A stretch of DNA of 64,000 bases from a virus: IMG/VR virus record IMGVR_UViG_3300046758_000611, positions 106,222 to 170,221 of that record, one strand, 5' to 3'. A program made the translations under genes and the position numbers. Of the stretch, positions 25,941-62,208 are shown piece after piece. Under the pieces are notes generated by a model, which saw only the letters and a list, made by a program, of their open reading frames with translations, made no database searches and was not told where the DNA came from. Within the stretch, counting starts at the first letter, position 1, and each line of letters opens with the position of its first letter.

Positions 25941-28448
25941 ATGTACCAAAATATATTCGTAAGCAAAAAGGACAACACAATTTATTTGTGGGATGATAAA
26001 CAAGGTTTAGTAACCTACAAAAACAAACCATACGCATACAGAAAGTCTCCGAACGGAATGTATCGTAGTATGTATGGTGACAAGTTAGAAAAGGTAACTA
26101 AGTATCGGTATGAAGATGCAGGTTTGTTTGAATCAGATGTTCCTATTGAAACACGTAACTTAATTGACCTTTACGAAGATGACGATGAACCAAGTACAGG
26201 TCATTGTGTATTAAACTTCGATATTGAGGTTAGTATGGAAGGAGAGTTGCCTGACACAGAACGAGCAAACAATCCTATTACTTCCATTGCGTATCACGAT
26301 AGTTGTTCTAATAACTATGTGGTTCTTGTTTTAGACAAGGAAGATAAAATCACCGACTATTCTAATGATGAAGTTTCGGTTTATTCTTATGATACAGAAC
26401 GAGCAATGCTTGAACACTTTCTTGATTTTTATCAAGAGATTAGTCCGACAATATTGACCGGTTGGAACATTGATTACTTTGACGTTCCTTATTTGTATCG
26501 TAGACTCGCAAGAGTTTTAGGGCAAGGTGATGCAAATCGTTTGAGTCCTATTGGACACGCATATTATCATCAGTTCAAGAAACGTATTGTTATTGCAGGT
26601 GTTAGTTGCTTGGATTATCTTGCGTTATACAAGAACTTTACATTTAGTGTTGAACCAAGTTATCGTTTGGATGCAATTGGTCGTAAAGAAGTTGGTATTG
26701 GTAAAGTTGAATACGAAGGTAATCTTGATGATTTGTTTTCACAAGATATTGAGAAGTTCATTGAATACAATTTGAACGACGTAAAGATTGTTGTTGAGAT
26801 TGATAGAAAGATGGAACTCATTGAATTGACTCGTAGCATTTGTCACGTTGGACACGTTCCGTATGAAGACATTTTATTTTCGTCTCGTTATCTTGAAGGT
26901 GCATTGCTTACTTATCTTCGCAGACACAATCTTGTCGCACCAAATAAAGACCCAAATGGTCGTGAACGATTCAATGAAATTAAAGGTGACGAATCCAAGA
27001 AGTTTAGTGGAGCATATGTGGCTGCACCGACACCTGGCAAATACAAGTGGGTGTTTGACTTGGATTTAACTTCTCTGTATCCATCTATTATTATGTCCAC
27101 GAATATTTCACCAGAAACCAAAGTGGGTGTTGTTGATAATTGGAGTCCCGAGAAGTTTTGTGACGGAGAACAAACCGAAGTTGGATTTCGTGGAGAAACA
27201 TATTCAGCAGATGAGTTCAAGGCATTTCTAAAAGATAACAATCTTTCTATCAGTAGCAACGGAGTTATGTATACCAAGAATAAGGTCGGACTTATTCCTG
27301 CGATTCTTGATCAATGGTTCAACCAACGTGTTGAGTTCAAGAACAAAATGAAAGAGTATGGTAACTCAGGTGACGATGCAAAGTATGTGTTCTATAAAAG
27401 ACGTCAGCACGTGCAAAAGATTCTTCTTAATTCGTTGTATGGTGTTCTTGGTTTGCCTATCTTTCGGTTTTATGATGTGGACAATGCAGAAGCAGTTACG
27501 ACCACAGGTGTGTCCGTGATTAAGTTTAGTCGCAAGATTGCGAATCACTATTACAATAAAACACTTGGTGATACAGAAGATCATTGTATATACATTGATA
27601 CCGACTCGGTTTTCTTTTCAGCATTGCCTATCGTAGAAAAAACGATGCCTCACGTTGATGTAAAGAACGATGACGAAATGGCAACTGCAATTCTTGAAGT
27701 TGCGGGTGATGTACAAAACTTCATCAATAAAAGTTATGATGTTATGGCAAAACGTTTCTTCAACATTGAAGAGCATCGTTATGACATTAAACAAGAAGTG
27801 ATTGCCAAAGCAAGTATGTGGTTGGCAAAGAAACGATATGCACAATGGATTATCAACAACAACGGTGTTACTTGTGACGAATTGGAAGTTAAAGGTCTTG
27901 ATGTTGTGCGTAGTAGTTTTCCAACTCGGTTTCGTAAGTTTATGACGGAAATCCTCAAAGATATTTTGAAGGATGTGCCGAAAGAAGAAATTGATGAAAA
28001 GATTGTTACACTCAAAAAGCAAGTTAAGAACGAGTCGGTTGATGATATTGCAAAGACGAGTGCAGTTAAAAATATATCCAAGTATGTAAAGATGATGGAT
28101 AAAGGTGCAGTTATGGGTGAGTGTGCAAAAAGTACACCCGCACACGTTAAATCAAGTATCATTCACAATCAGTTTCTCAAAAAGTTTAAAATACAAAGTG
28201 AACCTATTCGTAATGGTGAAAAAATTAAGTGGATTTATTTGAAGAACAATGAACTTGGTTTAGATGCACTTGCGTTTCGTGGTTATGAAGACCCACCACA
28301 ACTTATGGAGTTTATTGAGAAGTATGCAGATAAAGATAAATTGTTTGAACGAGAACTTGAAGGAAAGTTGCGTGACTTTTACGATGCACTTAGTTGGGAC
28401 TTTGCAAGTGAGAATCTTGCAACTGCTCAAAAGTTTTTTGCTTTCTAA
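25941..28448 (+). CDS. Family B DNA polymerase (T4 gp43-like)
   Basis: This 835-residue polymerase has the 3'-5' exonuclease motifs LNFDIEVSM (Exo I, ~92-100), GWNIDYFDVPYL (Exo II) and YNLNDVKIVVE (Exo III). The polymerase motifs are DLTSLYPSII (A, ~375), KILLNSLYG (B, ~492) and YIDTDSVF (C, ~551). The N-terminus resembles marine T4-like gp43 proteins. It is the main replicative polymerase, acting with the clamp and loader at 33-35 kb. Its last residues, AQKFFAF, resemble the C-terminal clamp-docking peptide of T4/RB69 polymerases. The next start overlaps its stop. Confidence 0.96.
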   Translation: MYQNIFVSKKDNTIYLWDDKQGLVTYKNKPYAYRKSPNGMYRSMYGDKLEKVTKYRYEDAGLFESDVPIETRNLIDLYEDDDEPSTGHCVLNFDIEVSMEGELPDTERANNPITSIAYHDSCSNNYVVLVLDKEDKITDYSNDEVSVYSYDTERAMLEHFLDFYQEISPTILTGWNIDYFDVPYLYRRLARVLGQGDANRLSPIGHAYYHQFKKRIVIAGVSCLDYLALYKNFTFSVEPSYRLDAIGRKEVGIGKVEYEGNLDDLFSQDIEKFIEYNLNDVKIVVEIDRKMELIELTRSICHVGHVPYEDILFSSRYLEGALLTYLRRHNLVAPNKDPNGRERFNEIKGDESKKFSGAYVAAPTPGKYKWVFDLDLTSLYPSIIMSTNISPETKVGVVDNWSPEKFCDGEQTEVGFRGETYSADEFKAFLKDNNLSISSNGVMYTKNKVGLIPAILDQWFNQRVEFKNKMKEYGNSGDDAKYVFYKRRQHVQKILLNSLYGVLGLPIFRFYDVDNAEAVTTTGVSVIKFSRKIANHYYNKTLGDTEDHCIYIDTDSVFFSALPIVEKTMPHVDVKNDDEMATAILEVAGDVQNFINKSYDVMAKRFFNIEEHRYDIKQEVIAKASMWLAKKRYAQWIINNNGVTCDELEVKGLDVVRSSFPTRFRKFMTEILKDILKDVPKEEIDEKIVTLKKQVKNESVDDIAKTSAVKNISKYVKMMDKGAVMGECAKSTPAHVKSSIIHNQFLKKFKIQSEPIRNGEKIKWIYLKNNELGLDALAFRGYEDPPQLMEFIEKYADKDKLFERELEGKLRDFYDALSWDFASENLATAQKFFAF

Positions 28449-46673: not shown

Positions 46674-47315
46674 TTAAGTAAGAATTTCATCAACCATTCC
46701 GTACTTCAAGCAAGTTTTGGCATCCCACCACAAATCATGTTTTAGAATTTCATCCATCTTTGTTTTTGGAATCTTAGTTTTTTCTTCGTATATTTCTTTT
46801 ATACGTTTCATAAGATTATCTGAATTTTTCATGTCATCCTGAAGTTCTTGATATTTTCCCCAATGCTGAGAACTAAGTTGGTGGACAAGCATATATGAAT
46901 TTTCACCAATGAATCGTTGTGTTCCACAGACACTCATAATTGTACCCGCACTAGCCGCACATCCATCAATGTATGTATATATGGGTGTTTTTGACTGATT
47001 CATGTAATCAATGCTACCAAATGCAGCGAATACACTACCACCATAACTATTAATTCTTAATCTAATCGGAATACCCACATCAAGACCAAGTTTCATAGAA
47101 ATCATTTGCATTTCTCTGTCTAACCTAGATATTTCTTTATTAAGATTAAAATTTTCCTTCATACCAACACTCGAATAGAAGTAGATAATATTATCATCAC
47201 CTTCTACAGTATCCATCGATCCTGCCTCGGCATTTTTTGACTTTGGACTAACCTTCTTTTTTGGAGAAACCTTTTTTTTAGGTTCTACATTTTCATTAAA
47301 TTCCCAATTATACAT
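46674..47315 (-). CDS. clpP: ClpP-like serine protease
   Basis: In this 213-residue protein the ClpP core starts near residue 40 after a Lys/Pro-rich N-terminal extension. It shows RLRINSYGGSVFAAFGSIDYM, the nucleophile in CAASAGTIMSV (Ser122), the active His in YMLVHQL (His145) and Asp near HDLWWD (Asp194). It should form a barrel that degrades unfolded proteins, with a host or phage ATPase; no ClpX/ClpA was found in this window. It could also act in head maturation. Confidence 0.9.
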   Translation of the reverse strand: MYNWEFNENVEPKKKVSPKKKVSPKSKNAEAGSMDTVEGDDNIIYFYSSVGMKENFNLNKEISRLDREMQMISMKLGLDVGIPIRLRINSYGGSVFAAFGSIDYMNQSKTPIYTYIDGCAASAGTIMSVCGTQRFIGENSYMLVHQLSSQHWGKYQELQDDMKNSDNLMKRIKEIYEEKTKIPKTKMDEILKHDLWWDAKTCLKYGMVDEILT

Positions 47316-47536: not shown

Positions 47537-49186
47537 TTAGTTATTGTTTGGAAGAATAATATTATCAGGTTTTTCAATCTTTACAATACTTTCTTCGTTA
47601 GATTCTTTAGAGTCGTGTCCGACAACGTCGGAAGATTTTTTTTCAGTAGTGTTCTTTGCATAACAAGATGTGTCTTGAAACATTTCATCGAGGAAATTTT
47701 TTTGACCCTCTGATTCTTCAAGGGGATTGCCATGCATATCAAATCCAGCATCTTTTAAATCACCGATAATACTATTAATAGTAACACTATCGGCAACACT
47801 TGTGCCATACTTATTTTCGTAGTATTCAAATATCTCACGTGCTTTGGGGTGCATATTTTCACGTCTTTTATCATTATTGATAGTGTGAACAACATCCCAT
47901 TCGGTATTTGCTACTCCGTGCCAATCGTAAATAAAACAACTATCCGGTTCATTTGTCTTTTCGACGGAGTCGAAAGAATTTTTTTCGGAAGATACTTCAT
48001 GGAACTCATCAGTAAAACTTTCATTCGTTTTCGGTTTTTCACCGTATTGTTCAGCAGCCACTTGAATTGGATGTTTATTTCCATTTTGCCCATCAACGTC
48101 GAAAGAATTTTTTTCGGAAGGTTGTCCATTTGCATAATCGGTATTGTTGTACATCACATCAAACATATCCACATCTACATCACCAACAATATCGTAGGTT
48201 TCGAGAGAATTTTTTTTCAAAGGATTGTCGGTACTTTGACGAATACATCCAGCAATGATAGATTCTTTGCGATTAACGGCATCAAAATCAATAAGACCTT
48301 CACATGGATTACCAGGTTCACCTTCTACACCCCGTTCCGAGTAAAGATTATAGTCATCAGGACCATCCACAGGTGTCCATTCATCCTCATCCCAAGTTTC
48401 ATCATCGTATACATTACCTTCACTATCATAATATACAGGTGATTCGTATACAGGAATCAAATCAAATGGATTTTCAATTTCTTCGTGAACAACATAACGA
48501 TAAACACGAACTTTTTGACGATCACTATCTTCCGGTACACTAACTACATCCGATGGATTAACTTTAACGGAAACAAGACGATCACCAACCTGTTCACCGT
48601 TTTCATCAATTTTAAAACTTCCGTAACTACGAACATATTCAATGCTACCACAATGAAGACCACTTGAACAATGCTTTGTGGGATCAGCAGTTACTTCTTC
48701 ATAGGGCATTTTTACTTTATTACCAACTTTATTTGAAATCGTTCCAGTATACTTGTCGGTATAATCACGATTAATTGCTTTGTAAGCAAGGAAACATCCG
48801 TCTTCGGTGATAGGAAGGTTCTCGTGCTTCAAAAAGGTATAAAGTTGATCTATGCTACCTTCAGAGGGATTATCCATAAGATTAACAAGGAAGTTAATCA
48901 TGGGTTCTACCGCATCACCGTTTTGAATCATATCTACGATTCGTTGAGTAAGTACGTTGTGTACAATTGTTCCGTTGTAAATTAAGTTATCTCCATCAAC
49001 AACAATTTGCCCATTGGAAAATTCTTTGTATCCATTTTTGACATCAAGAAGATTGTCAATGTCGAGGAAATTTTTTTGAAGCAATGCTTTTTTAATTTTA
49101 TAGAAATTAGGATGAGTTTTACTAACAACCGCAGGTCCCGATTCGGATATTAGTGTAATTGTTGAGTCGGTGATTATACTTTGCAT
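47537..49186 (-). CDS. rIIB: rIIB-like protein with repeated KN[S/F][F/L][D/E] motifs
   Basis: This 549-residue protein has an N-terminal ~240 residues that match rIIB-like proteins of marine T4-like phages: LPITEDGCFLAYKAINRDY, HCSSGLHCGSIEYVRSYG, and VKVNPSDVVSVP. The C-terminal half is acidic and disordered. Across the protein a short motif recurs: QKNFLDI, KKNSLET, SEKNSFDV, SEKNSFDS and QKNFLDE. In T4, rIIA/rIIB affect lysis and exclusion of other phages. It lies downstream of rIIA as in T4, separated by two small basic genes. Confidence 0.85.
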   Translation of the reverse strand: MQSIITDSTITLISESGPAVVSKTHPNFYKIKKALLQKNFLDIDNLLDVKNGYKEFSNGQIVVDGDNLIYNGTIVHNVLTQRIVDMIQNGDAVEPMINFLVNLMDNPSEGSIDQLYTFLKHENLPITEDGCFLAYKAINRDYTDKYTGTISNKVGNKVKMPYEEVTADPTKHCSSGLHCGSIEYVRSYGSFKIDENGEQVGDRLVSVKVNPSDVVSVPEDSDRQKVRVYRYVVHEEIENPFDLIPVYESPVYYDSEGNVYDDETWDEDEWTPVDGPDDYNLYSERGVEGEPGNPCEGLIDFDAVNRKESIIAGCIRQSTDNPLKKNSLETYDIVGDVDVDMFDVMYNNTDYANGQPSEKNSFDVDGQNGNKHPIQVAAEQYGEKPKTNESFTDEFHEVSSEKNSFDSVEKTNEPDSCFIYDWHGVANTEWDVVHTINNDKRRENMHPKAREIFEYYENKYGTSVADSVTINSIIGDLKDAGFDMHGNPLEESEGQKNFLDEMFQDTSCYAKNTTEKKSSDVVGHDSKESNEESIVKIEKPDNIILPNNN

Positions 49187-49710: not shown

Positions 49711-51969
49711 TTACTTTTTGGTGGAATTTACCAATTCCATGTATTCAATAAGATTTTCCATAGAGTTAGTGTAGGAACCAGAACCATCTAAAGCACTTCC
49801 CATGAACCTTACCATTGGATACTCTTGGGAAAGCATATGAGGTATGTTCTTGAGGGTATATGACACCTTAGAAGTAAAGTAGGAATACAAGTTTCTTTCA
49901 CAATGAATATTTGTATATCTCGTAAAGTTTTCAAAGTCGTGAGACGATTGAGATTCTTCGTCAGAAACATTTTTTTCAGAATGATTATTAATGTTTATGA
50001 TTCTACGAATCTTCATTAATTCTTTTATTGTATCAGTATTACCAGATTCTTTAAGAAGAACACATACTCTTTTAAATACACGATTGTTAAGTAGATTATT
50101 AACAACCTTGTAAGAACCATCATGCTTGAAGTGATAAAACTTTCTTGCAATAACAGATTGATAAAGAGAACCAGTTTTATTTTTGAACGAAGATTCAATG
50201 TAATCGGAAATTACATCAAATACATTCTTGAAGTTATCATACTTTGTGAGTTTCTTGGTTTGAGCATACTTGATTCCGTAAATCTTAACATCATCTTGTT
50301 CAATGACCTTGTTAAGTAAAGTATTAAGTTTGCAAGTATTAGAATATTCACTATCATGGAAATAAATTTTCCAATTACGAATAGGAACATAATAAATAGT
50401 GTCCTTGGTATTCAAAGCAATTTCTTCTTCAGAACTCCAATTGCCAGCACTATTCCAACCATAGTCATTTATTTTCTCGTAAGCAATCACACTATCTTTG
50501 GTTGTAGTGGAAGAACTACGATTGGTGGGAGGTTTTTCCAATTCGGAAGTAACACTAACTTTATTTGGATAACCGATGAGTTTTAAATAGTTGCGTTCTT
50601 TGTCGGTAAACTCGTCAAATACAAGAACAACTTTGTTTTTATTCTCACGAACATAATGATTTATACGACTAACACTACCAGTTGGTAGATCGTTTTGAAA
50701 GAACTCTACATCAGCATCAAATGGAATGATACCATTAACATCACTTCTACGATTTACTTTATCAGCACCGTGGTATCTATTTCTTTTAGGAGAACCCAAC
50801 CAAAACAAACGATAATCCATTTTTTCAAGATTAGGATTCTTGGAAACATCTCCGTATCGTTCAGATACATCTATTCCATTCCAAGATAGTTTTTCAGTCC
50901 ACTTGAAGTGTCCAATGCTTCCACTTCCGTTGCGATCAATGTCAGAGTAGTATTCTTCGTTGTAACCAACCATACTATTAAAAAGAATACGAGCATCCCA
51001 AAAGTTCTCACAATCATTTAATTGCTCGTTCATAATATCCTTAATTTCGTTGTAAACACGTTCAACGAAATTAACCATATACTCACGACCTTCACTTGTC
51101 CAACCGATTTCTTCACGACTTGCAGTAACATCTAGATTTCCGATAGGAACACGAAATACCAAGTTACTAACCAGTCTACGATATTCGTAAGTGTTGCTCC
51201 ATCCGTGCTTTTTTTCAAAGTCATCAGAAACATCAGAGAAATTGAATGGATAAGCAACATTACCCATAAGAATAATAGAATCAGAATAAGTAAGTTGTGA
51301 ATCTACATAATACCAATCTTTTCCTTCAAGTCTCTTGGTAGGAACTTTAACTTCTTCTTTCGTTGATCCGATAGTAAGATTAGGAGTTACATCAAAGTAA
51401 CCTAGAATGCGTTGTGCAGACTCACGAAGTTTATCGTAAGTATTTGCTTCAGTAGGAGTAAACTTGATTTCAGTACCAGATGCTTCATCAGTATTCTCTT
51501 CAGAGATGATAGAAAAGTTTGGGACATCCGCATCAAGATAATTGATAACCGTAGTCTTCTTACCATCCTTTACAGAAGTAACCGTAAACGCATCACTAAG
51601 AGTAAAAGGAGTTTTACTTCCTAATCCCATACAGCCCACAAAGTCGTTGCTATGAGTTTTGTTGCTATCAAAGTAAGTAGTATAAGTAGTTTCAAGTTCT
51701 TGTTTGCTCATACCAATGCCATAGTCCCTAATAGAGAACCAAGGCTCTGCCACACTAGGCAGGTGTACATCAAAAGGTGTATGGATATTACCTTTGGCTA
51801 CGTGAGCATCATATGCGTTAGTAGATAACTCACGAATAGGAGCAGCTATTTTGTCACTATATAAACCATCACTTAATATCTTAAATGCTTTTGCTGATGC
51901 CTTGATTGAATACTGAGTAGTATTAGGTAATGTATTACTTACTACGTTAGGAGCTGTTTTAAGTTGCAT
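49711..51969 (-). CDS. rIIA: rIIA-like GHKL ATPase protein
   Basis: This 752-residue protein is of the T4 rIIA type. The N-terminal GHKL ATP-binding fold has the N-box ELSTNAYDAH (47-56), G1 DYGIGM (82-87) and G2 GCMGLGSKTPF (112-122). In T4 rIIA is membrane-associated and, with rIIB, needed to grow on hosts carrying the lambda Rex exclusion system. The 250-base leader contains a promoter and a 15-base sequence that also occurs in the iteron array at 56.9 kb. Confidence 0.9.
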   Translation of the reverse strand: MQLKTAPNVVSNTLPNTTQYSIKASAKAFKILSDGLYSDKIAAPIRELSTNAYDAHVAKGNIHTPFDVHLPSVAEPWFSIRDYGIGMSKQELETTYTTYFDSNKTHSNDFVGCMGLGSKTPFTLSDAFTVTSVKDGKKTTVINYLDADVPNFSIISEENTDEASGTEIKFTPTEANTYDKLRESAQRILGYFDVTPNLTIGSTKEEVKVPTKRLEGKDWYYVDSQLTYSDSIILMGNVAYPFNFSDVSDDFEKKHGWSNTYEYRRLVSNLVFRVPIGNLDVTASREEIGWTSEGREYMVNFVERVYNEIKDIMNEQLNDCENFWDARILFNSMVGYNEEYYSDIDRNGSGSIGHFKWTEKLSWNGIDVSERYGDVSKNPNLEKMDYRLFWLGSPKRNRYHGADKVNRRSDVNGIIPFDADVEFFQNDLPTGSVSRINHYVRENKNKVVLVFDEFTDKERNYLKLIGYPNKVSVTSELEKPPTNRSSSTTTKDSVIAYEKINDYGWNSAGNWSSEEEIALNTKDTIYYVPIRNWKIYFHDSEYSNTCKLNTLLNKVIEQDDVKIYGIKYAQTKKLTKYDNFKNVFDVISDYIESSFKNKTGSLYQSVIARKFYHFKHDGSYKVVNNLLNNRVFKRVCVLLKESGNTDTIKELMKIRRIININNHSEKNVSDEESQSSHDFENFTRYTNIHCERNLYSYFTSKVSYTLKNIPHMLSQEYPMVRFMGSALDGSGSYTNSMENLIEYMELVNSTKK

Positions 51970-51973
51970 AATA

Positions 51974-52003
51974 GATGATAGTTGATGTAATATATGTTAG
52001 TTG
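51974..52003. promoter_or_regulatory. Iteron-like element in rIIA leader
   Basis: Minus strand ACATCAACTATCATC (51988-51974) is identical to part of the decamer array at 56921-56935. CAACTAAC (52003-51996) matches the hairpin arm at 56992-56999. Both lie within 35 bases of the rIIA start, suggesting a shared binding protein. Confidence 0.55.
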
Positions 52004-52104
52004 ATTATTAGAAACTGAATAAGGTCTACGATTTATTATAGTTATATTATAGTTCTTAGAAAAAAATGAATTCCTCTATCTCTCGTATTTCTCATTATGA
52101 TATC

Positions 52105-52133
52105 ATCTTACCATAATACCCCTTAGACGTCAA
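52105..52133 (-). promoter_or_regulatory. Sigma70-like promoter for rIIA
   Basis: On the minus strand, TTGACG (52133-52128), a 17-base spacer and TAAGAT (52110-52105), about 135 bases before the rIIA start. This gives an unusually long leader compared with the other promoters seen here. Confidence 0.55.
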
Positions 52134-52226: not shown

Positions 52227-52484
52227 TTAGTTAGGATACACAGGTTCTACAATGCAGTTTGCTTCTAAAGAGATTTCATATGCTTGATCCATGTTTACAC
52301 GATCTCCTACACTAACAACTCTTGGTTTTGATCCTGAGTTTTTGTTTATTTCAAAGCATACACCATTTTCAATTTTCATAATTTCAAAATGAGCATCACT
52401 AGCCAGCATAGCAGTAGGATGACTTTTTACATATCTTTTTAGATACACATATGTAGTGCCTTCTGATGATTTACTATTAAACAT
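52227..52484 (-). CDS. Small paralogous family member 4 (85 aa)
   Basis: This 85-residue beta-rich protein has VYLKRYVKSHPTAM, FEIMKIENGVCFEINK, VVSVGDRVNMDQAYEI and a final VEPVYPN. It shares this order of elements with the three upstream genes, so the four form a tandem family. Function unknown. Confidence 0.6.
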   Translation of the reverse strand: MFNSKSSEGTTYVYLKRYVKSHPTAMLASDAHFEIMKIENGVCFEINKNSGSKPRVVSVGDRVNMDQAYEISLEANCIVEPVYPN

Positions 52485-52513
52485 AATAGGGAATTATATA
52501 GTGTCCCCAAAAA

Positions 52514-52795
52514 TTAGTCAAGAAGCATTTCTATATTATCATCTTCCGAGTACACCGGTGTTACTACAACAGAATAAGTTCTTTCAATTTGAGTGGCTTG
52601 AGATAAAGTAATTCTTTCTCCTACTTCTAATTGTAGTTGTGGTCCATCTCCATCTGCTTCTTTAGCAAGTTTATTAACTTTAACTACAACCAGATTTTCC
52701 AACTTTCTTATTTCATAGCATTTCTCAGGATGCTCAATTGCAATAGGATGTTCTCCTACATAACGAATTAAATATATCTTTTGATTATTGTTCAT
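52514..52795 (-). CDS. Small paralogous family member 3 (93 aa)
   Basis: The start is set at ATG 52795 (MNNNQKIYLIRYVGEHPIAI); the longer frame overlaps its neighbour by over 100 bases. It shares with the 52227-52484 product IYLIRYVGEHP, YEIRKLENLVVVKVNK, EVGERITLSQAT and VTPVY, the clearest pair in the family. It overlaps the upstream gene by 11 bases. Confidence 0.6.
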   Translation of the reverse strand: MNNNQKIYLIRYVGEHPIAIEHPEKCYEIRKLENLVVVKVNKLAKEADGDGPQLQLEVGERITLSQATQIERTYSVVVTPVYSEDDNIEMLLD

Positions 52796-53048
52796 TTGAA
52801 GTATTCCATTTCCCAAGAAACGGTGAAACATAATCTGTGATTTTAAGTTTTGATTTTCTTCCGAGCAATTTTGATTGTTCTGGAGTAATTGTATCACCTA
52901 CACACATTTCTATTTGCGGTCCTTCTCCTTGTTTTAAATTGATTATTTTGTTTATTGCTACCGATGTAGCATTTTCAATGTCTTTAATTACAAAAAACTC
53001 ATTTTTAGTTTGAGTAACGTTTCTTTCTAAGTGTACTATTGGTTTCAT
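52785..53048 (-). CDS. Small paralogous family member 2 (87 aa)
   Basis: This 87-residue protein has IVHLERNVTQTKN, FFVIKDIENATSVAINKI, GPQIEMCVGDTITPEQSK. The IEN...INK...GPQ...VGD..T..Q order matches its downstream neighbours. It starts 3 bases after the previous gene's end. Confidence 0.58.
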   Translation of the reverse strand: MKPIVHLERNVTQTKNEFFVIKDIENATSVAINKIINLKQGEGPQIEMCVGDTITPEQSKLLGRKSKLKITDYVSPFLGKWNTSNEQ

Positions 53049-53051
53049 ATA

Positions 53052-53360
53052 TTAATCGTTAAGTAAATCTAAATCTTTAGAATCCCTTTCCACTATTTCA
53101 ACAGTTTCATAATTGTTTTGATAATTACGGGTTTGTTGTACCAAGTGCTTTACTTGGAGTTCGTTAAGAAATTCCCCCACTCTTACTTCTTTATCAGTAA
53201 ATCCGAAGGGATCGTCTAAACTTTTTTCAGGAATAACAATAGATGCTTCGTTGATAATTTTTTTTATCTTATACGGCAGAGTTACACTCTTAGGGCAATA
53301 TTCAATAGTAACTTTTACACCCTTCGGTCTGTTTTTTCCCAATCCAAGTAAATTAATCAT
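53052..53360 (-). CDS. Small paralogous family member 1, most diverged (102 aa)
   Basis: In this 102-residue protein VTLPYKIKKIINEASIVIPEK and VRVGEFLNELQVKHLVQQ match the core of the other three only loosely. An N-terminal LGLGKNRPKG segment is extra. It is the first gene of the tandem set, preceded by a TATATATATTTATATG element. Confidence 0.52.
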   Translation of the reverse strand: MINLLGLGKNRPKGVKVTIEYCPKSVTLPYKIKKIINEASIVIPEKSLDDPFGFTDKEVRVGEFLNELQVKHLVQQTRNYQNNYETVEIVERDSKDLDLLND

Positions 53361-55722: not shown

Positions 55723-56085
55723 ATCTTAATATTATAATATAATTTGATATTAGTCAAATACTTTATGCAGAGCACACAGAGCACAACAGCATTTAAGCAG
55801 GGCTTGATATTTCAGTTGCTAATATTGGCTATAACCAGTATATGAACCAGAATATAATTTCTAATTTGAAAATTTAATTCACAATGTGTGTATACACCAG
55901 GTTGCGTAATATAGTACATGGATGTAATCTGCGATGATTTTAAACTGCTGTATTCATTGCAAAAACATTTGGTACTTTTTTTGACTTACGATAAACTTAT
56001 ATGTAACCCACCCTCCCACTCCTTAGAGTGTAATAAAGTTTTTATAATTTGTCAAGACTATTATTATAAAAAAGATATAAAAACT

Positions 56086-56166
56086 TTATTTTTTCATTAG
56101 TTCCGACCATACCCAAATACAGCCAGTTACTATCAGTATAATTGCTACTATAATCCATTCGTTCAT
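56086..56166 (-). CDS. Single-span membrane micropeptide (26 aa)
   Basis: ATG 56166 begins a 26-residue peptide, MNEWIIVAIILIVTGCIWVW then a short basic end. Promoter TTGACT-N17-TATATT lies 8 bases upstream, giving a nearly leaderless message. The longer frame to 56286 has no such support. Probably a small inner-membrane protein. Confidence 0.48.
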   Translation of the reverse strand: MNEWIIVAIILIVTGCIWVWSELMKK

Positions 56167-56173
56167 GTTATAT

Positions 56174-56202
56174 AATATAGTATGATAATGTGAATAAGTC
56201 AA
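56174..56202 (-). promoter_or_regulatory. Sigma70-like promoter for micropeptide
   Basis: On the minus strand, TTGACT (56202-56197), a 17-base spacer and TATATT (56179-56174). Confidence 0.58.
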
Positions 56203-56292
56203 ATTATTTTTGTCAAGTTTTTTATGATATATTTCCCCAAGAAAAATGAAGGCATTTTGGGTCTGGTTCTGTTCCCCTCCCACCATCCCTTG

Positions 56293-56321
56293 ATGGTATC
56301 AAAAATTTTGCGAAAAGTCAA
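56293..56321 (-). promoter_or_regulatory. Second sigma70-like promoter, leftward
   Basis: On the minus strand, TTGACT (56321-56316), a 17-base spacer and TACCAT (56298-56293). A hairpin ACCATC/GATGGT overlaps the -10 region, which could regulate it. Confidence 0.45.
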
Positions 56322-56393
56322 CTCATAATAATGATAATAGTAAAGCTATAAGTAATAGTAATATACGCATACATAGTAATAGTATAACGCAAT

Positions 56394-56525
56394 AGCAATC
56401 AGCACCTACTTTCAATAATATGCACCTAGCAAAAATATTTAACTGCCATATCGTAAGTTGCTATTATTCAGTATGTTGTGTAGGTAATGAATATAAGCAA
56501 TTATTTTTCGTAGGTGCTAATTGCT
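56394..56525. repeat. 16-bp inverted repeat
   Basis: AGCAATCAGCACCTAC (56394-56409) and GTAGGTGCTAATTGCT (56510-56525) are inverted copies with a single mismatch and a 100-base spacer. Confidence 0.7.
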
Positions 56526-56600
56526 TTTTATCGGCCGTTGCTAGTGGGGGCAATGCATATTATCATTAGTAATAGTAATAAGGAATGTGTATGAAATGGC

Positions 56601-56710
56601 TTGACAGCAATAGTGTTTTTTGCTATGAGTAGCTATGGCATAATTAGGATGCCTCTGCGAGAAACCCCTATATTAAATTATAGGTGTGGTAGGCTCTCAG
56701 CCTTTATCAA
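56601..56710 (+). ncRNA. Candidate small structured RNA with its own promoter
   Basis: TTGACA (56601-56606), a 17-base spacer and TATGAG (56624-56629) form a promoter with no open reading frame downstream. From about 56636 the sequence contains a CCTATA/TATAGG hairpin. GCCT...GAGA and AGGC...TCTC pairs at 56650-56700 interleave and could form a pseudoknot. No known RNA family was recognised. Confidence 0.4.
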
Positions 56711-56910
56711 TCAGTATTTTATTATATTATACATAAATAAATGTATATGACTATCAATATATCTACCTTGATACCTAGAACGCATTTGACACCTATAATA
56801 CAAGGTTTATCATGCACACAAGGTTAAAAGGTATTTTTGGGGACATATAGCCCTACCTAAACGTATACTATATTTGTCTATTATGCTATTAGGCTATTAC
56901 TATATGAATA

Positions 56911-56970
56911 TTATCAATTAACATCAACTATCATCAACTATCATCAATTATCATCAATTATCATCAATTA
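56911..56970. repeat. Six tandem 10-bp iterons
   Basis: The units read TTATCAATTA, ACATCAACTA, TCATCAACTA and three copies of TCATCAATTA, exactly 10 bases apart. This helical spacing is typical of initiator or regulator binding sites. One 15-base part recurs in the rIIA leader. Confidence 0.8.
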
Positions 56971-56972
56971 TC

Positions 56973-56999
56973 GTTAGTTGGTGGATGGGGACAACTAAC
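56973..56999. other. Perfect 8-bp inverted repeat next to iterons
   Basis: GTTAGTTG (56973-56980) and CAACTAAC (56992-56999) flank an 11-base G-rich loop. The same 8-mer is found in the rIIA leader at 51996-52003. Confidence 0.7.
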
Positions 57000-57318
57000 C
57001 TGATGTTATACGCATTTAGCATTTATAGACGGGTAAGACGACGTTCATGCTATTTCATTTAACCTATTACTATTACTATTACTTATACTATGTTTATTAC
57101 TATTATGCATTATGCGTATATTATCTACTTTACTATTACTATTACTATTATTACTTGTATAGCTATTATCATTATCATTATGCTATATTTCCGCAAAAAT
57201 TTATATAACTTTTTCAGGCCATATCTAGTTCCCTTTTACGGGTAATTCGGTGGGTGGAAAACGAGGCCTAATAATAGATGAAATGAAGAAGAAATCAAAT
57301 GGTTGCGAAAGCAAGCAT

Positions 57319-58215
57319 TTATTTCTTTTGAATGAAATCTGAGTGCATATAATACTCTAAATTTTGAGGAGGATTTTTGTCCTCAATAGTATACCGATAA
57401 TCATCAATTTTGGTAAGACCTTTTCCACCACTAGAAACAACAACACCATTTGAAAAATGAGAAGCAATAGTAGAAAAACAACTTGAAGATTTAATCAAAA
57501 CATCTGCACGAAACATATAATATAAGTCCTGAATAGCATCTTCATTTATACGCAATTCCACATCCTTTAAATTTCTAAATCTATACAAAGAATCAATATG
57601 TTTAATAAGAGAATTAGCAATATCATCATTACGTTTGCCATCAAAAATTTTTCTCGAATCCTCGGTTATTATAATGATTTTAAGAGGTTTATTCTGATAA
57701 TTGCACAATGTATTATTGCGAACAAATTGAATAGCATCAAGAAAAAATTCATCACTATTTGCTCGTTGTTTAAATCTATTATTAAAACGAAACAAATCAC
57801 CTCTGCGAATATGAACCACTATATTATAGTAATCATAATTCAATGAATCAAGGGATGAATGAACGACACTTTTATTAAACTTTTCAAGATATAATTCTTT
57901 AACCATATTAAAATGATAAGGATGTTTTTTGAATAATCTAGGCACACAATTTTCACCTTTTCTACACATACCCATAAAAGTAATTTTATTATACTCAATA
58001 TCATCAATGTACAATTCGTTGTATCCAAGATTAAAAAATTCCTCGACTTTTTTTCCGTATTCATAATCATCTTTATGATGAGAACTTTTTACAAATGGAA
58101 CATGAACATACTCAACATCATCTGTAATTTTACAATACCCCCAAAGAAAAAATCGCCGTATCATTTGAGCACCTATGCCATCTCGTTTTTTATCATCAAA
58201 TGCTAAATATTTCAT
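57319..58215 (-). CDS. Fucosyltransferase-like glycosyltransferase
   Basis: ATG 58215 is preferred; the upstream codons lie inside the sulfotransferase gene. The 298-residue product has the VVHIRRGDLFRF motif (HxRxGD), an IIIITEDSRKIFDG strand and a SSSCFSTIASHFSNG segment, as in alpha-1,2/1,6-fucosyltransferases (GT11/GT23/NodZ type). It should transfer fucose from GDP-fucose to a glycan. It overlaps the sulfotransferase gene, hinting at a fucosylated, sulfated glycan. Confidence 0.75.
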   Translation of the reverse strand: MKYLAFDDKKRDGIGAQMIRRFFLWGYCKITDDVEYVHVPFVKSSHHKDDYEYGKKVEEFFNLGYNELYIDDIEYNKITFMGMCRKGENCVPRLFKKHPYHFNMVKELYLEKFNKSVVHSSLDSLNYDYYNIVVHIRRGDLFRFNNRFKQRANSDEFFLDAIQFVRNNTLCNYQNKPLKIIIITEDSRKIFDGKRNDDIANSLIKHIDSLYRFRNLKDVELRINEDAIQDLYYMFRADVLIKSSSCFSTIASHFSNGVVVSSGGKGLTKIDDYRYTIEDKNPPQNLEYYMHSDFIQKK

Positions 58216-58216
58216 A

Positions 58217-58816
58217 TCAAAAGGTATAATCCAAATATTGAATATCATTAGCATATTTTGAAACAAGCAATTTTTTTGTTTGTTCTGAATAATACTCTGA
58301 ATAGTGATTATGATAAGTAGAGTTTTTAATCTTTAATTTACTTTTAGGTTTATTTATCATATCGCACAATGTATCATAATCATTTTGTAAGTTTTCGTAT
58401 CTTCCCACAAAATTCATTTTACATACATCATTCATATAAATAAAATCATAATTGGGTAATAAGTGCTGGTGAATAGATTGTTGTCTTTGTGTATATTCAA
58501 GATCTTGTGCAATGAAATGATCAAATGTTGGATGTTCGTTTTCATAGTTCTTATGAATTTTACAACGATAAAAGTATTCTGAAACCGCACGTTCAAATGG
58601 ATTTCTAATAAAACTGAATTTGAAATAATCATCAAATTGTTTCGTAGAAAGATAATCATATTCTAATAATTGTGATATACTATAATGTTGTCTATATAAC
58701 ATATGTGCCTTACTCCAACCAATAGGATTTCTTTGATCTGTAAATTCCTTGGTAATTGTTTGTGTGGCAGTTTTTGGTATTTCCACAAACACTATTTTTA
58801 AGTTATGATCAATCAC
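58217..58816 (-). CDS. Carbohydrate sulfotransferase-like protein
   Basis: This 199-residue protein carries the PAPS-binding 5'-phosphosulfate loop FVEIPKTATQTI (10-21) and the 3'-phosphate site FSFIRNPFERAVSEYFY (~68-84) of Sulfotransfer_2-type enzymes. GRYENLQNDYDTLC further matches the family. It likely sulfates a sugar on host or phage glycan. The downstream gene is a fucosyltransferase. Confidence 0.85.
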   Translation of the reverse strand: MIDHNLKIVFVEIPKTATQTITKEFTDQRNPIGWSKAHMLYRQHYSISQLLEYDYLSTKQFDDYFKFSFIRNPFERAVSEYFYRCKIHKNYENEHPTFDHFIAQDLEYTQRQQSIHQHLLPNYDFIYMNDVCKMNFVGRYENLQNDYDTLCDMINKPKSKLKIKNSTYHNHYSEYYSEQTKKLLVSKYANDIQYLDYTF

Positions 58817-58840
58817 ACATATAAATATGATTTTGATGAT

Positions 58841-59449
58841 TTATCGTTTCCACCAAAAATCGTGAGCATATAACCAATATCTACGGTCATACCAATATAG
58901 AATATAACGATCATAATACCACATGGAATAAAACCAACCATATTCTTCACTGTATAAAAAATTTTGCTCGATTCCGAAACTGAATACCCACCCTAAATCT
59001 TCACGATATATCCATGTATCGTATGTGGTACTTTGTATAGTAGTAGAATAAGTCCATCCGTGGTTATCTATATATCTCCATTCATAGTCATCGTAAGGAT
59101 CATCAATAATACTAAGTTTAGGTTCTTTTATAGTAGTATCTACTTTATGAACATTATTTGGTTCTTCCGAAAAATTTTTCCTCGATGGGTCTGGCAACAT
59201 ATCTCTTGCTGGAATGCCAAATGGATCGGGTTTGCTTTCATTCAAGATATTCATTGTTTTCTGAAATTGTTTGTTACGAGATAAACATCTTGAGAAATGA
59301 ATACCAATATCTAATGGTTCGTGAGCATTTACGGTTTTGCAATATTTACATCCGCAGAGAAAATCTGAGATTTGAGGATAATATCTACCAGCAAATAAAT
59401 TACATACAATCAATAAACCACTGTATATTAAAAAAATTTTGCTCGACAT
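58841..59449 (-). CDS. Exported protein with W/Y-rich repeats
   Basis: This 202-residue protein has an N-terminal signal-like segment SSKIFLIYSGLLIVCNLFAG, then a CGCKYC cysteine cluster (~32-37). The C-terminal 85 residues contain at least four aromatic repeats of the type GWxY/GWVF/GWFYS with acidic turns (NHGWTYS, DLGWVFS, EYGWFYS, RRYWLYA). Similar aromatic repeats occur in surface proteins of some Verrucomicrobia, as far as I recall. A surface-binding role is plausible. Confidence 0.58.
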   Translation of the reverse strand: MSSKIFLIYSGLLIVCNLFAGRYYPQISDFLCGCKYCKTVNAHEPLDIGIHFSRCLSRNKQFQKTMNILNESKPDPFGIPARDMLPDPSRKNFSEEPNNVHKVDTTIKEPKLSIIDDPYDDYEWRYIDNHGWTYSTTIQSTTYDTWIYREDLGWVFSFGIEQNFLYSEEYGWFYSMWYYDRYILYWYDRRYWLYAHDFWWKR

Positions 59450-59479
59450 ATGATAATATATATCATACTGATAGTATAA

Positions 59480-59701
59480 TCAAAAACAAACTAAATAGAT
59501 TATACACGGAATAGTAGAACCTATTATCGTATAAAACGCATCTAATATTTCAGGGTTTCCTTTTTTAGTCTTCGCATCATATATTTCTTTAGTTATTCCT
59601 GCTATAAATCCAAGAGAAAATAATAAAGGATGAATAAATCCGAATGAAGATAATACCAATCCTGCTATAAAATGCAATTGTTTGTCTAGTGGTATTTTCA
59701 T
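59480..59701 (-). CDS. Small membrane protein (73 aa)
   Basis: In this 73-residue protein KQLHFIAGLVLSSFG, FSLGFIAGITKEIYDAKT and DAFYTIIGSTIPCIIYL give two or three hydrophobic helices. The H-x-x-AG and KEIYD motifs resemble small DUF2279/VanZ-like membrane proteins, tentatively. It lies between the alpha/beta hydrolase and W/Y-repeat genes. Confidence 0.6.
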   Translation of the reverse strand: MKIPLDKQLHFIAGLVLSSFGFIHPLLFSLGFIAGITKEIYDAKTKKGNPEILDAFYTIIGSTIPCIIYLVCF

Positions 59702-59702
59702 A

Positions 59703-60359
59703 TTACAAATAAAGTTTCAGTAAATTTTCCAAAGAACCATCTTTGATTCCATCTTTAACTGTTGTACTAAAAAATGTAGTTGAACCACATTCTATATTTT
59801 CATAGTGATAGTAATTATGAAGTTCATCATCAACAGTAGCAGACTTGGTGTTTATGTGAAAATGAGTATATTTGTTTTCTGCTACGATGTTTTTTAAATT
59901 CTTGTACAATGAATAAGTTTTTAATTTTGATGTTCTTTTCAAATGACCACACATAAAATCACCCCAACTTCTTTCGCATATCTTTTGAGCATAATCAAGA
60001 TCAGTCTGTGGATTAAATGCAATTACCGCATCAGCATTAAGTTTGCTTCCGAATAAAATAGATGCGTAACCACCTGCACTAACACTCATCGTTACAACTT
60101 TGTCGTGTGATTGAAAATATTTTTTGAAAAATGCAAGTGAGTGTGTGATATTATTTCCAACTCCTTCAATTTTACTTAAATACCAATTTTTGAGATTATC
60201 TCTGACAAATAAATAATTTGCATAAATATTCATATTAGATAAACTTTTTCTAAATTCGAATACTGATTCATTATCAACGAACTTAGAAATATTACTTGCA
60301 AACGCAATAACAAGATTTTTACTTTTATTGTCGTAAAACTCGTATCCACATGAACTCAT
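59703..60359 (-). CDS. Alpha/beta hydrolase-like protein, copy A
   Basis: In this 218-residue protein the nucleophile elbow is VTMSVSAGGYASILFGSKLN near residue 95, followed by VIAFNPQTDL. A His near LHNYYHYEN may complete the site. It is related to 61576-62208, which has GISAGGFASILFGS and VDPQT at the same places. Similar proteins appear with capsule genes and may be esterases or deacetylases acting on glycans. Confidence 0.68.
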   Translation of the reverse strand: MSSCGYEFYDNKSKNLVIAFASNISKFVDNESVFEFRKSLSNMNIYANYLFVRDNLKNWYLSKIEGVGNNITHSLAFFKKYFQSHDKVVTMSVSAGGYASILFGSKLNADAVIAFNPQTDLDYAQKICERSWGDFMCGHLKRTSKLKTYSLYKNLKNIVAENKYTHFHINTKSATVDDELHNYYHYENIECGSTTFFSTTVKDGIKDGSLENLLKLYL

Positions 60360-60382
60360 TTATATAAATATAAACGGAATTA

Positions 60383-60829
60383 TTATTTGAATACTTTACA
60401 TTTATTGTCGTTATATGTGAATCCCTCAACAGTATGAGGAAAGTTTAAGAAAATAGTATCACCAAAATCTGTTGTATTATTGATAGACGGAGTATTTGTA
60501 AAGTAATGAAAATGTTCTCCGTTTGATCCTACTAGAATATCACATAACTCATTTTTATTTCTTATTTTAATAACTACACCTGTTTGAACATCATACATTT
60601 CTTTAAATTCATTATCATCTTCATGATCTAATACTTCCGCAGAAATTTCCAAAGTAGTTGGTTTAGTTATTCTAGTGTCTAGTCTTGGTTCATGGTCATT
60701 TTTAAAAAGCAATGATACTAAAATTCCTTCATTCATAGAATTTCCAATTGCTATTTCGTGTGGATTGCAATATTCGTTTCCATCAGGATCTTCGTGGGAA
60801 ATTTCACATATTACAATATCATCAAACAT
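60383..60829 (-). CDS. Hypothetical protein (148 aa)
   Basis: This 148-residue acidic beta-rich protein (MFDDIVICEISHEDPDGNEY...) has a GSNGEHFHYF segment. No signature recognised. It precedes the hydrolase copy A in the leftward unit. Confidence 0.55.
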   Translation of the reverse strand: MFDDIVICEISHEDPDGNEYCNPHEIAIGNSMNEGILVSLLFKNDHEPRLDTRITKPTTLEISAEVLDHEDDNEFKEMYDVQTGVVIKIRNKNELCDILVGSNGEHFHYFTNTPSINNTTDFGDTIFLNFPHTVEGFTYNDNKCKVFK

Positions 60830-60910
60830 ATTCTTACTTTAAAGCAAAGCATTCAATGGTGCAACGATAAAAATATTATAAAAACTAATATTTATATAAC
60901 AAGGAGATTG

Positions 60911-61579
60911 ATGATGAAATTAAATATAACAAATAAATTAAAAAATATTTGCTGGAGTTGTTTGGCATTTGTGGCAATTGGTATAACGATAGTTTTTATG
61001 GCAGGTTCAAGTTGTAAAACAAAAACAGATATGCGTGAGTTAATTGATATACCAGTTATGAGTGGAGAAGATATAGAAAATTCTTTCCAAAATAAGAATT
61101 ATATTGATCGTCATACGATTGGTAGACACTTTTCAATGCAAAAATCAGCAAACTGGGTTCAAACGAAAGTTCCTACTGACTTTAAAGTTGTAATGCTTGA
61201 TACTCGTTATCGTTATGTTGATTATTATCATTTTCGCAAATTTAATAATTGGTTTAAAAAACTTATGTTTGAAGCAGGAATTCAACCTGGTATTGAAAAC
61301 AATCATCAAGCACTTGATTGTGATAACTTCGCAATGTTATGCAAATCACTTATGGGTGTTAGTGCATATAAAAGTGGAGATAAACTTGAAATGGGAGTAG
61401 CAGTAATTGTTGTTCGTCAAGTCAATGAATTTGGTGGAATACCAGGAACCGGTGGACTTCATATGCTGAATTTGATATTTACACCAGGTAAGTGGCTCAT
61501 TTACGAACCACAAACCAATGAATATATTCGTCTTGAAGATTATCCAAATCAAGAATTCGTTCAATATATGATTTTATGA
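60911..61579 (+). CDS. Putative lipoprotein with Cys/His catalytic-like pattern
   Basis: AAGGAG lies 5 bases before ATG 60911, the strongest Shine-Dalgarno in this part. The 222-residue product has an N-terminal signal and a lipobox-like AGSSC. A cysteine-protease- or transglutaminase-like layout follows: QALDCDNFAMLCKSL, then GTGGLHMLNLIF and WLIYEPQTNE. This is similar in plan to the 10992-11462 product. An envelope-located thiol enzyme is plausible. Confidence 0.58.
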   Translation: MMKLNITNKLKNICWSCLAFVAIGITIVFMAGSSCKTKTDMRELIDIPVMSGEDIENSFQNKNYIDRHTIGRHFSMQKSANWVQTKVPTDFKVVMLDTRYRYVDYYHFRKFNNWFKKLMFEAGIQPGIENNHQALDCDNFAMLCKSLMGVSAYKSGDKLEMGVAVIVVRQVNEFGGIPGTGGLHMLNLIFTPGKWLIYEPQTNEYIRLEDYPNQEFVQYMIL

Positions 61580-62208
61580 AACCTCATAAATTTAAAAAAC
61601 TAGGAAGACAAAATTTATTGATTATTTTTCAATCAATGAATGCACATTTATATAAAGAAGAAAATGCAAATAAATTTGAACTTGAAGGTACATTTTCAAA
61701 ACCAGAAAATGATGTAAGTTCTTGTGATTATTTATTTATCAAAGATGAAATTAGGCCTGCTCTTGGTGGTGGATGGTATTTAAATCCAAGTGAATCTGTA
61801 TACGAACTTATAGATTTTTTAAGTAAGCAGAAAAAAGATTACAACAAAATTTGTGCAACAGGTATTAGTGCAGGAGGATTTGCTAGTATACTATTTGGTA
61901 GTTTGTGTATGTTTGATTTAGTTCTCGCAGTTGACCCTCAAACAATCTTATATGATTTTGAAACTAATAAACCTCTTCATAATGCAGATGATACCTATTT
62001 AGACTTAAAACCACACATTAACAATACCACAAAGTATTATATGTATAATAATGGTAAAGAAAAGTATAAAGAGTGTGACTTTGATGGTAAACTCCACCAT
62101 AAAATTAATTCATATAGACTTAGAAAATTTGATAATGTATTTGTTGAAAGATTTGGTAATGTAGCAAGTGGTAATTGGAAATCAATCTTAAAAAACAACG
62201 GGTTTTAA
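61576..62208 (+). CDS. Alpha/beta hydrolase-like protein, copy B
   Basis: In this 210-residue protein the active-site elbow is ATGISAGGFASILFGS near residue 97, followed by LVLAVDPQTIL; HHKINSYR may hold the catalytic His. It shares these motifs and the LFIKDE/LFVRDN strand with copy A at 59703-60359. It overlaps the upstream lipoprotein gene by 4 bases. Likely involved in glycan modification; substrate unknown. Confidence 0.68.
   Translation: MKPHKFKKLGRQNLLIIFQSMNAHLYKEENANKFELEGTFSKPENDVSSCDYLFIKDEIRPALGGGWYLNPSESVYELIDFLSKQKKDYNKICATGISAGGFASILFGSLCMFDLVLAVDPQTILYDFETNKPLHNADDTYLDLKPHINNTTKYYMYNNGKEKYKECDFDGKLHHKINSYRLRKFDNVFVERFGNVASGNWKSILKNNGF

Follow-up and report, generated by a model that had tools for sequence, protein, structure and literature searches.

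A conserved non-coding locus of a T4-like phage as a possible replication origin sharing a sequence motif with the rIIA leader

A non-coding locus of a T4-like phage genome, conserved in every relative found to hold the region, contains a cluster of short repeats whose motif is nearly confined to two places, this locus and the leader of rIIA. We tentatively read the locus (56225-57330) as a replication origin combined with early promoters, with a shared binding protein acting at rIIA (probability roughly 0.4). The origin reading builds on the longest ORF-free gap found in the genome, polar inverted TA(A/G) arms, an unstable arm, and core repeats spaced by 18 bp. The window, i.e., the whole stretch of 64,000 nucleotides analyzed here, represents bases 106222-170221 of the virus record IMGVR_UViG_3300046758_000611 (170,221 bp in total).

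Genome setting and relatives

Judged by sequence, the virus is a T4-like phage, and the named phages closest to it infect cyanobacteria. The best named match of its DNA polymerase is Microcystis phage Mel-JY01 (47%), with Synechococcus phages next, making a cyanobacterial host likely. The genes needed for orientation are:

25941-28448, DNA polymerase, T4 type
47537-49186, minus strand, rIIB-like gene
49711-51969, minus strand, rIIA, 752 aa (PHROG 612, E = 2.1e-109)

Three IMG/VR contigs with both rIIA and the non-coding locus served as relatives (L012, L013, and L014), their RIIA proteins being 92%, 79%, and 83% identical to that of the window, respectively. A search for more relatives with the exact core and leader patterns returned the same three contigs only, and a paired-motif search of all viral contigs returned just two of them. 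Relatives found via the DNA polymerase were without the locus, one of them stopping within rIIA, and a large 92% relative from this search appears to end before the locus region. Named phages gave no DNA match, an rIIA search of genome contigs gave no match, and no array comparable to the decamer array described below was present in the stretches of Mel-JY01 that were read or in the distant rIIA loci L015-L019. As the only four holders of the locus are related genomes, its conservation is partly a matter of common ancestry. The ends of two contigs (L013:1-40 and L014:1-40) fall inside the right TA(A/G) tracts of the locus, probably an assembly break at repeats. Contigs of further relatives likewise terminate within the rII region or ahead of it.

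The wider surroundings hold several further genes. A DnaK (HSP70)-like gene, here found in a T4-like phage (38784-40688, minus strand, 634 aa), encodes a product matching DnaK at 55-59% in phage-collection records, some of which are possibly host sequence. Adjoining rIIB is a protease-like gene (46674-47315, minus strand) with affinity to head maturation protease and ATP-dependent protease families. Four small adjacent ORFs (52227-53360, minus strand) have a common C-terminal pattern (VGDxI..EQ / VGERITLSQ) and look paralogous; they showed no family match. To the right of the locus (57319-62208), accessory genes vary between relatives, among them a galactose-3-O-sulfotransferase-like gene (58217-58816) and a gene with a GxSxG esterase-type motif (61576-62208), a relative of which is carried left of the locus in L014 instead.

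A conserved non-coding locus with inverted TA(A/G) arms

The largest gap without an ORF of at least 90 aa in the 170-kb genome extends from 55723 to 57318, and within the locus only low-complexity frames below this length were found. All three relatives holding the region retain the locus with 70-81% identity over ~1 kb. It is composed of the following elements:

56225-57330, no strand assigned, conserved non-coding locus
56335-56382, plus strand, left TA(A/G) tracts, outer block (TAATAGTAA, TAATAGTAA, TAGTAATAG)
56567-56581, plus strand, left TA(A/G) tract, inner block (TAGTAATAGTAATAA)
56762-56830, no strand assigned, conserved core
56894-56902, minus strand, TA(A/G) tract (TAGTAATAG) on the core side of the array, immediately to its left
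56909-56968, plus strand, array of six decamers spaced exactly 10 bp apart, in which the motif ATCAAYTAWCATC appears in overlapping register
56973-56980 and 56992-56999, perfect 8-bp inverted repeat (GTTAGTTG/CAACTAAC) with an 11-nt loop
57064-57153, minus strand, right TA(A/G) tracts of up to 8 units, located where the DNA of the locus is least stable
56334-56387 versus 57094-57151, left and right arm of an imperfect inverted repeat (80%)

The core contains a TTGAYACC direct repeat (56768 and 56786) and a ACAAGGTT direct repeat (56800 and 56818), both with 18-bp spacing and the latter missing in some relatives; each of these pairs occurs once in the genome. The TA(A/G) tracts are strongly concentrated at the locus, which hosts four of the six runs of at least 4 units in the genome and all three runs of at least 5 units. 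Eight runs of at least 3 units were counted here, compared with a mean of 0.7 and a maximum of 5 in dinucleotide shuffles of the locus (n = 500). Across the four genomes, 15-base runs were found at the locus only. In each of them, runs of at least 3 units lie on the plus strand to the left of the core and on the minus strand to the right (16 and 15 blocks, respectively, in the four genomes together); the window has an extra plus-strand run at 57269, outside the arms. From genome to genome the blocks vary in both length and position, and the polarity thus outlives sequence turnover, although the four genomes are related and not independent.

In 4/4 genomes, the right arm is among the least stable 0.1-0.8% of 100-bp windows in the respective background. 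At 57050-57150 the DNA belongs to the 0.3% least stable windows, as would suit an AT-rich unwinding element, for which the right tracts (57064-57153) are a candidate; DNA of still lower stability occurs elsewhere in the genome. Cumulative GC skew, proposed together with the original prediction as a marker of the origin, has no extreme at the locus, its minimum falling near window coordinate -2.6 kb.

The decamer array and the inverted repeat

The decamers start at 56909 (TATTATCAAT), 56919 (TAACATCAAC), and 56929 (TATCATCAAC), followed by three identical copies at 56939, 56949, and 56959 (all TATCATCAAT). Tandem Repeats Finder (TRF) reports period 10, 6.4 copies, 90% matches, and a score of 100, which makes this the top array in the window; the other strong tandem arrays of the genome (periods 30, 18, 15, and 12) all lie outside it. 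The original prediction of six decamers at exact 10-base spacing was borne out, with a period-10 self-match of 47/50 positions exceeding the maximum of 33 found in 20 simulated genomes (170 kb, first-order Markov, 24 periods each). The array probably represents a cluster of protein-binding sites.

A perfect 8-bp hairpin had been proposed next to the array. The inverted repeat is indeed present, but as a fold it is unremarkable: single-strand DNA folding of the region gave z = 0.04 versus shuffles, and relatives retain only ~5 bp of the 8-bp stem. A hairpin acting as a functional DNA structure was therefore rejected. Since the arms are themselves copies of the motif (CACCAACTAAC and CAACTAAC), 56973-56999 is better read as two more motif copies in opposite orientation.

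Recurrence of the motif ahead of rIIA

The second place of the motif lies directly in front of rIIA:

51970-52005, minus strand, rIIA leader, in which a 19-bp tandem repeat (ATCAACTAACATATATTAC ATCAACTATCATCTATT) immediately precedes the ATG

The 15-mer ACATCAACTATCATC of the array (56921-56935) recurs on the minus strand at 51988-51974, and GTTAGTTG recurs ahead of rIIA at 51996-52003. With the rIIA ATG at 51969, the leader copies occupy -36 to -1. Both echoes were thus located where the original prediction had placed them, the 15-mer being restricted to these two sites. Across the 170,221 bases, ATCAACTATCATC has three occurrences, two of them in the array and the third in the rIIA leader, while ~0.01 are expected per genome. 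We regard the link between array and rIIA as real and specific; that one protein controls both sites, as had been suggested, is what we infer from it. The downstream copy of the leader repeat is identical in 4/4 genomes, and the upstream copy is changed in L014 only. Motif pairs ~19 bp apart are found in the rIIA leader as well as in the L012 locus. An early-type promoter candidate for rIIA (TTGACG-N17-TAAGAT, ~52133-52105, read from the alignment) would, if used, place the repeats in the rIIA 5' leader. Much of this leader (51970-52133, minus strand) is near-invariant beyond the repeat, with RIIA proteins differing by up to 21%.

Turnover of the array in relatives

Conservation within the locus is lowest at the array, whose regular six-copy form is seen in this genome only. 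Over 56898-56967, aligned identity amounts to 0.33-0.57 in L012 and L014 and up to 0.72 in L013, compared with values reaching 0.9-1.0 elsewhere in the locus. At the array position the relatives hold two to three degenerate copies, which are reversed in two of the three (L012 and L014) and irregular, in the orientation of the window, in the third (L013). The flanks of the array keep their orientation across relatives while the motif cluster flips, and motif copy number, spacing, and orientation differ among the four genomes. At least two good motif copies are nevertheless present at this place in 4/4 genomes, and a one-mismatch pattern search of the four records found the motif nearly confined to the array locus and rIIA. 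The original prediction was to be refuted if the 15-mer were frequent genome-wide or the array absent from close relatives, and the outcome is mixed: the 15-mer stayed rare, but none of the three relatives retains the regular six-copy array, the degenerate or inverted copies described above taking its place.

As the cluster flips between fixed flanks, a transcript of the locus would read like the rIIA leader in two of the genomes and like the complement of that leader in the remaining two. This split argues against an RNA decoy or antisense RNA and favors sites in duplex DNA; the flipping could also mean that the array is neutral.

Transcription signals

The locus and its left border contain several candidate signals:

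56293-56321, minus strand, candidate early promoter TTGACT-N17-TACCAT, reading toward rIIA
56027-56055, minus strand, second candidate early promoter TTGACA-N17-TACACT with the dyad CACTC..GAGTG and GGGAGG
~56602-56631, plus strand, candidate promoter TTGACA-N17-TATGAG with a poor -10 box, reading through core and array (read from the sequence)
57285-57330, no strand assigned, candidate two-way terminator AAGAAAT..TTGC-GAAA-GCAA..ATTTCTT (read from the sequence)

Both leftward promoters have the form TTGAC(A/T)-N17-TAnnnT and overlap a short dyad with GGGAGG after it; they are conserved in 4/4 genomes. The promoter at 56293-56321 has the dyad ACCATC..GATGGT and GGGAGG, with TACAAT instead of TACCAT in L013 and L014. 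Its dyad arms co-vary between relatives (ACCATC/GATGGT to ACAATC/GATTGT), and this joint change suggests selection on pairing or symmetry. The terminator candidate was missed by the scanner. CATAAATAAATG near 56731 had been considered as a late promoter and was dropped, being absent in L012. An Rfam search of the window matched tRNAs only and gave no match to the locus, and a consensus RNA fold over the array was not found; RNA-fold z-scores were unusable for some windows owing to crude column shuffles.

Comparison with known origins

T4 oriE contains evenly spaced 12-nt iterons, also found in syntenic regions of close relatives, with an unproven role; oriF and oriG consist of a promoter and an unwinding element, and both the choice of origin in T4-like phages and the function of the oriE iterons are still open (PMC3016281). 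The present locus resembles oriE as an origin candidate of a T4-like phage with evenly spaced short direct repeats near early-type promoters. It differs in its 10-bp units of other sequence, in the 1-kb non-coding setting with inverted TA(A/G) arms, in the motif common to the rIIA leader, and in the lack of conservation of the regular array; syntenic retention in relatives concerns the motif and not the array. Similar to oriF and oriG, a rightward promoter-like sequence (~56602) precedes an easily melted segment (57050-57250), but its -10 box is poor, the distance to the melting segment is ~450 bp, and no match to the MotA activation domain was found in the phage record.

In bacterial origins, DnaA-trios (3'-(G/A)AT-5') adjoin a DnaA box (PMC10797057) and form, in scaffolds, the 5' tail of the DnaA-box duplex, with 5'-TA(G/A) reading toward the box (PMC8287927). 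The locus shares with the oriC basal unwinding system repeated 5'-TA(G/A)-3' in easily melted DNA with a polarity toward a central conserved element, and it contains, as DnaA-trios do, at least three repeated trinucleotides 3'-(G/A)AT-5'. Unlike in bacterial oriC, the tracts flank the core on both sides, each reading toward it. No DnaA box was found within the required ~16 bp of the tracts, although divergent boxes are possible; the sole box (TTATTCACA, 56197, minus strand) is >130 bp from the nearest tract. A DnaA C-terminal domain was absent from the phage record, and host DnaA might act as initiator. Lacking an adjacent DnaA box and a phage DnaA, the locus was not filed as a DnaA-trio origin; it resembles an origin with DnaA-trio-like tracts and may, by analogy, work like such a system. 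A self-contained origin of a lytic T4-like phage that opens in an oriC-like manner, in which an initiator bound at the core and decamers would load onto the convergent tracts on both sides and also repress or activate rIIA, coupling replication to rII function, appears quite improbable. Iteron plasmid and lambda origins likewise have helix-phased direct repeats next to an AT-rich region, but here the number and orientation of the repeats vary between relatives, and a Rep/O-like initiator gene was not seen among the neighboring genes scanned.

Discussion

We propose that 56225-57330 is a cis-acting control locus, most likely one origin joined with the promoters of the early operon running toward rIIA. 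The easily melted right arm would serve as unwinding element, with the inverted TA(A/G) arms flanking the core. Copies of ATCAAYTAWCATC between core and right arm would bind a sequence-specific duplex-DNA protein, and the same protein would also occupy the 19-bp tandem repeat ahead of rIIA, tying rIIA expression to the state of the locus. In this proposal the elements, their conservation, and the two-place restriction of the motif are observations; from them we infer that the locus acts as an origin, that such a protein exists, and that rIIA is coupled to the locus. The earlier suggestion that array and hairpin form an origin thus remains plausible, but its support shifts mainly to other features of the locus, the array being poorly conserved.

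A pure transcription-control region of the leftward early operon, in which array and rIIA leader provide operators or activator sites of one regulator without any role in replication, is possible but rather doubtful. It would account for the two leftward early-type promoters with their conserved dyads, for the motif common to array and leader, and for the ~19-bp motif pairs of the rIIA leader and L012; the array, however, is ~600 bp away from the nearest leftward promoter, on its upstream side, and such control would leave the rest of the conserved kilobase (tracts, inverted arms, and unstable arm) unexplained. Replication slippage offers another account of the array: one or two motif copies would be functional and the six-copy form a recent, inconsequential expansion. 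Its poor conservation, the varying copy number, spacing, and orientation, and the near-identity of the last copies fit this account, which we consider unlikely given that at least two good copies persist here in 4/4 genomes and almost none are found elsewhere except at rIIA. Concerning the array alone, it is compatible with the proposed origin and promoter locus.

Control at the RNA level, by a locus transcript acting on the rIIA leader as same-sense decoy or antisense RNA, is very unlikely. The position of the leader copies immediately before the ATG, the highly conserved 5' leader, and a readable rightward promoter and terminator would suit it; the change from sense to antisense between genomes as well as the missing Rfam match and consensus fold of the array do not. 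Direct repeats of 10 bp resemble the arrays at partition sites, and a centromere-like segregation site or, with two contigs ending within the right tracts, a preferred genome end for packaging might be envisaged. This is highly improbable, as assemblers yield ends inside repeats, the contig of the window continues 7 kb beyond the site and that of L012 1.3 kb, and a partition gene was not seen nearby.

For the proposed origin and promoter locus, trio-like tracts with a consistent polarity would be unusual in a phage. A motif that four related genomes confine to a single origin-like locus and the leader of a single gene offers a direct test of whether the repeats bind an initiator and whether this initiator also regulates the gene.
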